A model generated the notes under the pieces. The model was not told the origin of the DNA. It saw only the letters and a list, made by a program, of their open reading frames with translations, and did not search any database. The translations under genes and the position numbers were made by a program. From an uncultured Bacilli bacterium (GTDB lineage Bacteria; Bacillota_I; Bacilli_A; RF39; UBA660): a stretch of DNA of 37,248 bases. Positions 21,543-23,170 of this stretch are shown in pieces. The stretch lies in the NCBI GenBank assembly GCA_944332555.1, contig CALVKF010000010.1:1-37248 (forward strand), in the 5' to 3' direction. The stretch's first letter is position 1, and every line of letters starts with the position of its first letter.

Positions 21543-21563
21543 AATTACCAAATAATAACAGAG
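21543..21563. repeat. 21-bp direct repeat, left copy (DUF3800 cassette flank)
   Basis: Contains TACCAAATAATAACAGAG and three further bases; identical over 21 bases to 22642-22662. It lies in the promoter region of the 20769-21515 gene. Confidence 0.9.
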
Positions 21564-21611: not shown

Positions 21612-21645
21612 TTGACAATTACCATAAAAAGTGGTATTATTGTCA
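21612..21645 (+). promoter_or_regulatory. Promoter of the DUF3800-associated RNA within an inverted repeat
   Basis: TTGACA (21612-21617), 17-base spacer, TATTAT (21635-21640). The same bases form an inverted repeat: TGACAAT plus TACCA on the left (21613-21624), TGGTA plus ATTGTCA on the right (21632-21645), with a two-base bulge. A repressor bound there would cover the -35 and -10. Confidence 0.8.
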
Positions 21646-21646
21646 C

Positions 21647-21720
21647 ATAAGAACTCTGTTCAATCCGAAGCTTTATGTTTAGTACATGAAAGGTTTATGT
21701 AGGAAGAACGGAGTTTTTTT
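21647..21720 (+). ncRNA. Structured small RNA facing the DUF3800 gene
   Basis: About 74 bases from the predicted start to the end of a T run. An outer stem pairs AACTCTGTTC (21652-21661) with GAACGGAGTT (21706-21715, one G-U pair), and the seven T residues that follow make it an intrinsic terminator. Inside, TCC (21665-21667) pairs with GGA (21702-21704), and GCTTTATGT pairs with ACATGAAAGG allowing a bulge. No ORF is present. Conserved structured RNAs beside DUF3800 genes were described as the DUF3800 motif series by comparative genomics; this RNA fits that setting, though I cannot match it to one numbered motif. The RNA converges on the 3' end of the DUF3800 gene. Confidence 0.78.
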
Positions 21721-22558
21721 ATTTGGAGTTTTTAGTTAACGATGAATCAAATATACTATTTCTAGATTTAAAACACCAATGTCTATATGGATCTTTCCAG
21801 TTGTTAGTAAAATCTCCTCGACTACTAGTAGAAATACCAATATTAAAATTTGGATATATGGTTTTAATATTCCTTAATATATTTTTATATAACTTTTGTT
21901 TAGCTATAGTTCTTTTTCCACGCCTATTGCTACCTGGTATTTTCTCTTTATCCATATTATTTAATTTAAAATTCATTGCTCCTAAAATAATATCCATACA
22001 TTGCAATATGACATGATTTTTAGAATCTATCTCAGCTATATCTTCATTATAAATATGGACATTATTAATACAAAAGAAATCATTTAAAGCATAAATATAT
22101 CCTTTAAATTCTCTGTTTTTCTTTTTAGTATCAGGTAATTTATCAAAATATAATTTTAATATTACTTGATCTTTCTCTTTAGGATTACAATAATCTATTC
22201 CAAATGCATGTTTTATAAATTGATAATATAAAAGAAAATACTCTTTTTCTTCTTGTTCCTTCGTCAAATTTTGTGGGACTAGTGCATTTTGTCTAAACAT
22301 TATTCTAATTTTAATCTCATTATTTCTAATAAAATCAAAGAAATAATCAATTAACTCCAAATATTTACCTAAATATTGTTCAGTAACTTTTATCCATTTA
22401 ACTTCTTGAAACAAACCTAGTTCTTCTTTTTTAGAATTAAGTTTTTTATTTATCGTTTCTAACTCACTATAGTTAACTAATGCACCACCATAAAAATTAC
22501 TAAAGTATTTTCCTTTTCTATGTGATTCATCTGCATAAATTAAATATTGTTTTTTCAT
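21719..22558 (-). CDS. DUF3800 domain protein
   Basis: About 279 residues from the second of two adjacent Met codons (22558 or 22561). The family start is clear: YLIYADESHRKGKYF then YGGALV, and the basic KKKNREFKGY and NRRGKRTIAKQ stretches follow. DUF3800 proteins carry a conserved acidic DES motif and occur in defence or mobile contexts; their activity has not been settled to my knowledge. The stop codon abuts the T run of the facing structured RNA. The promoter is overlapped by palindromes. The gene and RNA are enclosed by 21-base direct repeats, suggesting a self-contained cassette. Confidence 0.85.
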   Translation of the reverse strand: MKKQYLIYADESHRKGKYFSNFYGGALVNYSELETINKKLNSKKEELGLFQEVKWIKVTEQYLGKYLELIDYFFDFIRNNEIKIRIMFRQNALVPQNLTKEQEEKEYFLLYYQFIKHAFGIDYCNPKEKDQVILKLYFDKLPDTKKKNREFKGYIYALNDFFCINNVHIYNEDIAEIDSKNHVILQCMDIILGAMNFKLNNMDKEKIPGSNRRGKRTIAKQKLYKNILRNIKTIYPNFNIGISTSSRGDFTNNWKDPYRHWCFKSRNSIFDSSLTKNSK

Positions 22559-22577: not shown

Positions 22578-22639
22578 ATTATACCAAATTGTTGATATAA
22601 AGTCTATAAAAACAATAGACTATTTGTAAATTTACAAAT
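22578..22639 (-). promoter_or_regulatory. Promoter and palindromes of the DUF3800 gene
   Basis: Minus-strand TAGACT (22601-22606), 17-base spacer, TATAAT (22578-22583). The -35 is part of an inverted repeat AGTCTAT-AAAAACA-ATAGACT (22601-22621). Just upstream is a second perfect palindrome ATTTGTAAATTTACAAAT (22622-22639). Confidence 0.72.
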
Positions 22640-22641
22640 TG

Positions 22642-22662
22642 AATTACCAAATAATAACAGAG
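22642..22662. repeat. 21-bp direct repeat, right copy (DUF3800 cassette flank)
   Basis: Identical to 21543-21563 over 21 bases and in the same orientation. It lies in the leader of the CotF-like gene pair, just before a TTTGACAAATAATAATTATGG promoter-like stretch. Confidence 0.9.
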
Positions 22663-22707: not shown

Positions 22708-22923
22708 ATGAAAGATATTCCTGAAATGATATCTACAAAAGATAGTGCATACATAAAAGATATGTTTAATTGGAATTATGTGGCATATAAAAAGTTTGAT
22801 AATTATTTAGAATTTATTCAAGATGAAGAAATTGCTAAATTAGTTGAAAATTTAGTAGATTTACATTTTAATAATTGTAATACTATTTTAAACTTATTAG
22901 AAAGTGGTGGATCAAATGAGTGA
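22708..22923 (+). CDS. Small helical CotF-related protein
   Basis: 71 residues, all helical by composition, no signal peptide. The pattern ISTKDSAYIKDMFNWNYVAYKK resembles the first half of small coat F/ferritin-like proteins of Firmicutes. GGGAGG (22694-22699) precedes the ATG at a good distance. Its TGA overlaps the start of the next gene by eight bases, so both are made from one message and probably interact. Spore-coat role would be by analogy only. Confidence 0.65.
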   Translation: MKDIPEMISTKDSAYIKDMFNWNYVAYKKFDNYLEFIQDEEIAKLVENLVDLHFNNCNTILNLLESGGSNE

Positions 22924-23170
22924 TAAAGAATATATCATGGATATACTGGATACCGAAAAAAGTATGTCCGTCAATATGACATATGCTCTAAATGAAGCAA
23001 GTTGTGATAAATTATATAAAGAATATTTCAAAATGTTTGAAAGTATCAATAAATCTGCTAAAGAAGTATTTAATCTAGCTTATAAAAATGGCTTTTATGA
23101 GTTAGAAGAAGAAACAGGTACTAAAATTAATAAAGCAATTAAAACATTAACTGAAGAATTAGAAAAATAA
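22916..23170 (+). CDS. CotF-like spore coat family protein
   Basis: 84 residues from the ATG at 22916, with GGTGG just upstream; in-frame GTG codons at 22904 and 22907 are part of that site. The sequence MSDKEYIMDILDTEKSMSVNMTYALNEA and VFNLAYKNGFYELEEE follows the CotF layout (a helix with D-L--EK, then a helix ending F---KNGWY). CotF proteins are coat components in Bacillus, but relatives occur in non-sporulating Firmicutes. The pair with the overlapping gene is closed by the terminator at 23175-23208. Confidence 0.75.
   Translation: MSDKEYIMDILDTEKSMSVNMTYALNEASCDKLYKEYFKMFESINKSAKEVFNLAYKNGFYELEEETGTKINKAIKTLTEELEK

Follow-up and report, generated by a model that had tools for sequence, protein, structure and literature searches.

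In C. difficile the protein AbiF is toxic and is neutralised by a structured RNA, RCd22, which binds it directly; the pair is phage-borne, the RNA has a SigA promoter and a terminator (PMC12373285), and it is the nearest proven analogue of the locus described here. AbiF belongs to the Abi_2 proteins, is linked to Cas13 and, unlike DUF3800, lacks an RNase H fold. The RNA of AbiF is located upstream, is co-transcribed and has two motifs, whereas the RNA considered here is convergent with its gene. The type III toxin-antitoxin systems ToxIN and CptIN would share with the present locus the pairing of a nuclease with an RNA partner in a small two-part unit, but differ from it in toxin fold, in RNA repeats and in operon order. 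Type III antitoxins usually lie upstream of the toxin gene in the same operon, often as tandem repeats (compare, for part of this, PMC8860590); this layout is not found at the present locus, where the RNA is single, convergent and placed at the 3′ end of the gene.

DUF3800 proteins occur as accessory nucleases in some CRISPR systems, where their genes accompany some of types V-A2 and VI-F (PMC10910872, PMC12669027), and a CRISPR-linked DUF3800 protein has an RNase H fold with a rearranged active site (PMC10910872). The DUF3800-associated RNAs held in Rfam are without assigned function. Two of them, DUF3800-I (RF02969) and DUF3800-VII (RF02967), abut the 3′ end of a DUF3800 gene as does the RNA studied here, but they have other folds and accompany other protein clades. 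DUF3800 RNA motifs were reportedly described in an NAR paper of 2017, and the DUF3800-VIII RNA family and its link to DUF3800 were already known. The present analysis adds the near-universal convergence of RNA and gene in one clade and a predicted RNase HII-like fold for the protein of that RNA-linked clade, together with a conserved loop core, a bounded insertion with its empty site, relatives that keep only the RNA, and two unnamed kinds of RNA. The locus is a complete and naturally bounded unit of 1.1 kb that combines a predicted nuclease fold and a mapped RNA core with RNA-only and empty-site relatives; if the RNA does restrain the nuclease, it would represent a further class of RNA antitoxin, with a different enzyme fold.

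The RNA and its convergent gene

The window, meaning the whole stretch of 37,248 nucleotides of Bacilli DNA that was analysed, contains a single Rfam match. This is to the covariance model of DUF3800-VIII (RF03075) at 21650-21717 on the forward strand, where the score is 54.5 bits (gathering score 40.2) and the match takes in the whole of the model (positions 1-64 of 64), so that a full-length member of the family lies beside a DUF3800 gene. A covariance model built in this analysis from 30 RNAs (R1) gives 73.7 bits at 21650-21718. The 74 nucleotides assigned to the RNA in Table 1 fold at -23.3 kcal/mol (z -4.28), and none of 200 shuffles was equally good. With the gene ending at 21719 and the RF03075 match at 21717, the two are adjacent and convergent; the DUF3800 stop codon (21719-21721) directly follows the outer stem of the RNA, and the U-run of the RNA therefore overlaps it. 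An initial annotation, made from the sequence without database searches, had proposed just this arrangement, a compact two-part unit in which a DUF3800-associated structured RNA ends at the stop codon of a convergent DUF3800 gene, and the Rfam match and the coordinates bear it out.

Table 1. Features of the RNA-DUF3800 unit, by position in the window
Feature	Position	Strand	Basis or remark
Direct repeat, left copy, 21 bp, AATTACCAAATAATAACAGAG	21543..21563	+	
RNA promoter, sigma-70-type, TTGACA-17-TATTAT, extended -10 (TG)	21612..21640	+	11/12 consensus positions
DUF3800-VIII RNA, ~74 nt	21647..21720	+	RF03075, R1, covariation, fold z; transcript ends putative
RNA layout			outer helix, internal loop GAA / (A,U)GUA (conserved), inner hairpin, 3′ U-run
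DUF3800 protein, 280 aa	21719..22561	-	PF12686, PDC-M04A, AF2 fold, 1eke, alignment A3
DUF3800 promoter-like site TAGACT-17-TATAAT	22578..22606	-	10/12 consensus positions
Direct repeat, right copy, 21 bp	22642..22662	+	start-to-start spacing 1,099 bp

The promoter that the same annotation had placed ahead of the RNA is present, with the TG of an extended -10 in addition to its hexamers. The promoter-like site ahead of the gene has a -10 region that is kept among relatives; promoter-like sites overall occur at chance frequency, 14 being found where 10.5 are expected. Inverted repeats had been proposed over both promoters. That over the RNA promoter is a near-palindrome (21613-21645, TGACAAT..TACCA / TGGTA..ATTGTCA) which is found again in most close relatives and Bacilli copies, whereas that over the DUF3800 promoter (AGTCTAT/ATAGACT) exists in the window but is not conserved in relatives. 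The arms of the palindrome co-vary in relatives (TACCA/TGGTA against TATCA/TGATA), and it may serve as an operator or form a hairpin in the opposite transcript. The suggestion that the outer stem is the RNA's own terminator survives in part: stem and T-run plausibly act in this way in Bacilli, but a standard scan called no terminator at the window RNA, and in homologues from phyla other than that of the Bacilli the U-run is often missing, which together argue that the stem is more than a mere terminator.

In the RNA an outer helix, whose sequence and length vary, encloses an asymmetric internal loop and an inner hairpin. In an unfitted alignment of 30 RNAs made with MAFFT, standard pairs make up 88% of the pair cells and both partners have changed in 17 of the 20 pairs. 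The covariation score of 0.653 compares with 0.324 for shuffled controls and at most 0.261 for slid ones; covariation among homologues, named beforehand as a test of the RNA, is thus strong. The internal loop is conserved, with GAA on its 5′ side opposite a 3′ strand. Among 51 distinct RNAs, nearly all have UA as the last two bases of this strand, and in 40 it reads (A/U)GUA. Judged by base identity, the GAA/GUA loop presumably forms a bulged-G (sarcin-ricin/loop E) or a UA/GAN motif. In some homologues (L232, L240, L242, L255 and L263) the 3′ side of the loop bears an additional hairpin, ending in AUAG, in place of the GUA side, a variant that requires three changes on a protein tree of 37 rows. 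Compared with the Rfam family, the homologues assembled here include these extra-hairpin variants and also some RNAs that fall below the Rfam cut-off for RF03075, such as that of a Riemerella phage (L127, 34.8 bits).

Distribution of the pair and RNAs of other DUF3800 clades

From a query alignment of three homologues (the window, genome G049 and a Riemerella phage), 59 loci were retrieved from named genomes and eight from viral contigs, and 48 of these loci hold an intact-looking DUF3800 reading frame. A convergent RNA lies at the stop codon in all 48 intact homologues of the clade. In 46 of them R1 detects a single RNA at the locus, opposite in strand to the gene, and in the remaining two (L242 and L263) the RNA was recognised by eye. 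The initial annotation had counted DUF3800 homologues without the RNA as evidence against the pairing; none exists among the 48 intact clade genes. Three loci from which the RNA is absent (L257, L258 and L260) encode truncated or frame-broken proteins, L262 is a short partial match, and L227, L230, L256, L261 and L269 extend past the end of their contigs.

According to record titles and tree labels, the carriers belong to Bacillota (including records labelled Mycoplasmatota), Bacteroidota, Pseudomonadota, Nitrospirota, Chloroflexota, Acidobacteriota and Margulisiibacteriota, so that at least seven phyla carry the pair, as do prophages; named carriers include Mucilaginibacter arboris, Kordiimonas gwangyangensis and Riemerella phages. 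Thirteen Riemerella phage records carry this DUF3800 clade, and the RNA is present in the one in which it was examined (L127). A stricter RNA pattern run over viral contigs matched one contig. No locus found there with a loose pattern carried a DUF3800 relative, and the loose-pattern loci are therefore mostly due to chance. Across 28 distant loci there is no recurrent neighbour family, and the RNA and its DUF3800 gene are a stand-alone unit. A defence-island setting was also considered for these 28 loci; it is weak, as they yield single matches only, such as AbiU and a methyltransferase.

Ten loci retain the RNA beside a DUF3800 gene that is broken or nearly deleted. In two genomes, G570 (92% complete) and G032, all that is left of the gene beside the RNA and a recognisable promoter is a short C-terminal stub, and no intact gene of the clade is found elsewhere in either genome; G566 resembles them, its contig stopping ~80 bp further on. 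In the others (L004, L005, L006, L219, L220, L228, L252 and L259) the RNA is kept and the gene has frameshifts, stops or internal deletions, although some of these loci may be assembly errors. An antitoxin role would agree with this asymmetry, but the asymmetry was set aside as evidence for a toxin: the gene is a target ~12 times larger than the RNA, and with target sizes of 12 to 1 the chance of zero RNA losses in ~10 events is ~0.45, so that the asymmetry is expected by chance. Separately, RF03075 matches in the B. subtilis control genome and PF12686 does not; B. subtilis possibly carries a solitary DUF3800-VIII RNA.

The window's own genome has five DUF3800 genes, each facing a convergent RNA, and these RNAs are of three kinds: DUF3800-VIII in the window, DUF3800-I on contig C2 (L164) and an unnamed kind on C14, C15 and C31 (L165-L167). 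The unnamed kind belongs to protein clade E (with L176, L179, L186, L194, L195 and L198 as further loci) and is a convergent RNA of ~130-150 nt with a promoter, a structured body and a terminator. In seven homologues of clade F (L174, L183, L184, L189, L190, L191 and L192) the convergent RNA is ~80 nt long and has three hairpins with some compensated pairs. Neither kind has an Rfam match. DUF3800-VII occurs elsewhere in the bacterial family, in L136. When R1 was applied to the 69 loci of a DUF3800 family search it found nothing beyond the already known L202; it misses the RNAs of other clades, and the type of RNA therefore tracks the protein clade. Clades B and K are among the DUF3800 clades without such an RNA at the 3′ end, the 5′ flanks being covered by the Rfam scan.

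The orientation of these RNAs varies. DUF3800-I is convergent in L164, L169, L171, L181 and L187, and codirectional with and downstream of the gene in L182 (1727-1851). In further DUF3800 clades the RNA is downstream on the same strand and its promoter is situated where the gene ends; this is seen in L175, L177, L178 and L180, which gave no Rfam match, and in L139, L142, L143, L145-L148, L154, L155 and L162. Some of these same-strand RNAs give weak DUF3800-I scores. On the Citrobacter plasmid pLHC5-1-6.9k a DUF3800 gene is followed by an apparent convergent structured RNA with a terminator-like stem (L128:4285-4396), which has no Rfam match, and an Enterobacter plasmid (L129) encodes a protein stretch identical to the L128 DUF3800.

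Predicted nuclease fold and possible role of the RNA

The protein belongs to Pfam DUF3800 (PF12686; whole-protein score 37.4 bits, cut-off 21). PADLOC catalogues it only as the candidate family PDC-M04A (4e-21), and no paper naming PDC-M04A or PDC-M04 was found in the literature searched. No solved structure matched the protein by sequence. AlphaFold2, run with a 29-sequence alignment, returned a model with pLDDT 93.1 and pTM 0.91, for which RNase HII is the top Foldseek match among solved structures (1eke, E 1.8e-5), and VIA-align to 1eke gave Z 9.8 with 172 residues aligned at 14% identity. The model gives DUF3800 of the RNA-linked clade a predicted RNase HII-like fold within the RNase H superfamily. 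In alignment A3, D11, E12, E53, D140 and D190 (280-residue numbering; D10, E11, E52, D139 and D189 in A3, where numbers are one lower) are invariant in the 29 proteins. The acidic residues of RNase HII come in a particular order, with D-E close to the N terminus and two Asp further along the chain, and D10, E11, D139 and D189 of A3 fit that order. DUF3800 differs from RNase HII in its extra invariant Glu (EIKW), in its associated RNA and in the lack of a profile-profile match: hhalign gave a probability of 0.13% against RNase HII (PF01351), which also had no match in the Pfam scan. As hhalign shows no sequence relation between the two, it is the fold from which the nuclease class is assigned.

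The initial annotation had envisaged a toxin-antitoxin or defence module in which the RNA controls or guides the protein. Of these roles control fits best, and guiding is less likely because the unpaired parts of the RNA are its conserved parts and no segment is variable. We tentatively prefer, at not quite an even chance, a type III-like toxin-antitoxin or defence module in which an RNase H-fold nuclease is restrained by its own RNA. The protein would be a nuclease of the RNase H superfamily, nearest in fold to RNase HII, and the RNA its cognate structured partner, transcribed from its own promoter. Binding through the conserved internal loop would keep the enzyme inactive, and a failure of RNA supply, for example on phage infection or loss of the unit, would release it; the RNA would then act as an antitoxin, as in type III systems or AbiF/RCd22. 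Catalysis, RNA binding, toxicity and release by phage are all presumed in this scheme. The antitoxin reading fits best because the pairing is invariant, the RNAs are clade-specific, the unit occurs as a stand-alone insertion and is carried by phages, and the RNA survives without the protein. A wider generalisation is conceivable, if more doubtful: DUF3800 might be a broad class of RNase HII-like nucleases with clade-specific structured RNAs at the 3′ end. Gene and RNA would then form a new type of toxin or defence module under RNA control, different from both ToxIN and AbiF and spread as a small insertable unit, with at least two kinds of RNA in this bacterial family (those of clades E and F) outside Rfam.

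Much of the same evidence could be claimed for an RNA that does not inhibit the nuclease but is required by it, as an activating cofactor or scaffold in a working and perhaps target-directing RNP. A needed cofactor would be paired with its gene just as invariably, and conserved unpaired elements with covarying helices are to be expected of any tight RNP. RNase H-fold enzymes directed by RNA exist, among them Argonaute and RuvC-type nucleases, and Argonaute chains appear lower down the list of fold matches. DUF3800, with its RNase H fold, is itself an accessory in some CRISPR types (PMC10910872, PMC12669027). However, none of the homologous RNAs has a variable, guide-like stretch, and a guide-RNA reading was dropped for this reason and because the unpaired positions are conserved. 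RNAs that persist without the protein would be of no use as pure cofactors, although recent decay could explain them. A restraining RNA is accordingly favoured over one required for activity, and the cofactor role, while the foremost competitor, is rather unlikely.

It is improbable that the RNA regulates the convergent gene by an antisense mechanism or by transcription interference, although the two do overlap at the stop codon, by ~24 nt in L239 and ~11 nt in L236. Six Bacilli copies (L206, L207, L210, L212, L214 and L218) have a likely mRNA terminator beyond the RNA promoter, and their mRNA would therefore include the complement of the RNA; across the Bacilli copies overall, such terminators occur at a rate near the shuffled rate. 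An antisense RNA would not require covarying secondary structure, yet covariation is strong. With some DUF3800 RNAs, including those of other clades and DUF3800-I in L182, lying downstream on the gene's own strand, complementarity is not the shared feature; structure is conserved rather than complementarity, and DUF3800-I occurs in both orientations, which makes an antisense role unlikely.

The boundaries of the unit bear on a further alternative. In the window it forms an exact insertion of 1,099 bp between 21-bp direct repeats. The flanking genes lie 262-306 bp apart in the same-genus genomes G567, G568, G569 and G571, against 1,353 in the window, and in L275, the empty site in another genome of the genus, both junctions map to a single copy of the repeat. 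The closest copy of the unit (L204) has the identical repeat pair and L222 a different pair of 44 bp. Bacilli copies share the sequence from the DUF3800 promoter to just past the RNA promoter, and their flanks differ. These features, together with phage carriage, would suit a minimal mobile element in which the RNase H-fold protein and the RNA move or home the unit. Most other copies, however, have no flanking direct repeat of at least 12 bp, neither shared ends nor a target motif could be found among the copies, and passive spread as cargo accounts for the flanks, so that we give this explanation little credence. Least probable of all is that the RNA is a substrate or product of the protein or an unrelated hitchhiker, as the RF03075 match in the PF12686-free B. 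subtilis genome and the RNA-only loci might suggest, but against which stands pairing in 48 of 48 cases, at a fixed position and across phyla. Outside the unit, the window encodes a Coat F domain protein of the spore coat type at 22904-23170 (+), in a genome of 1.3 Mb.
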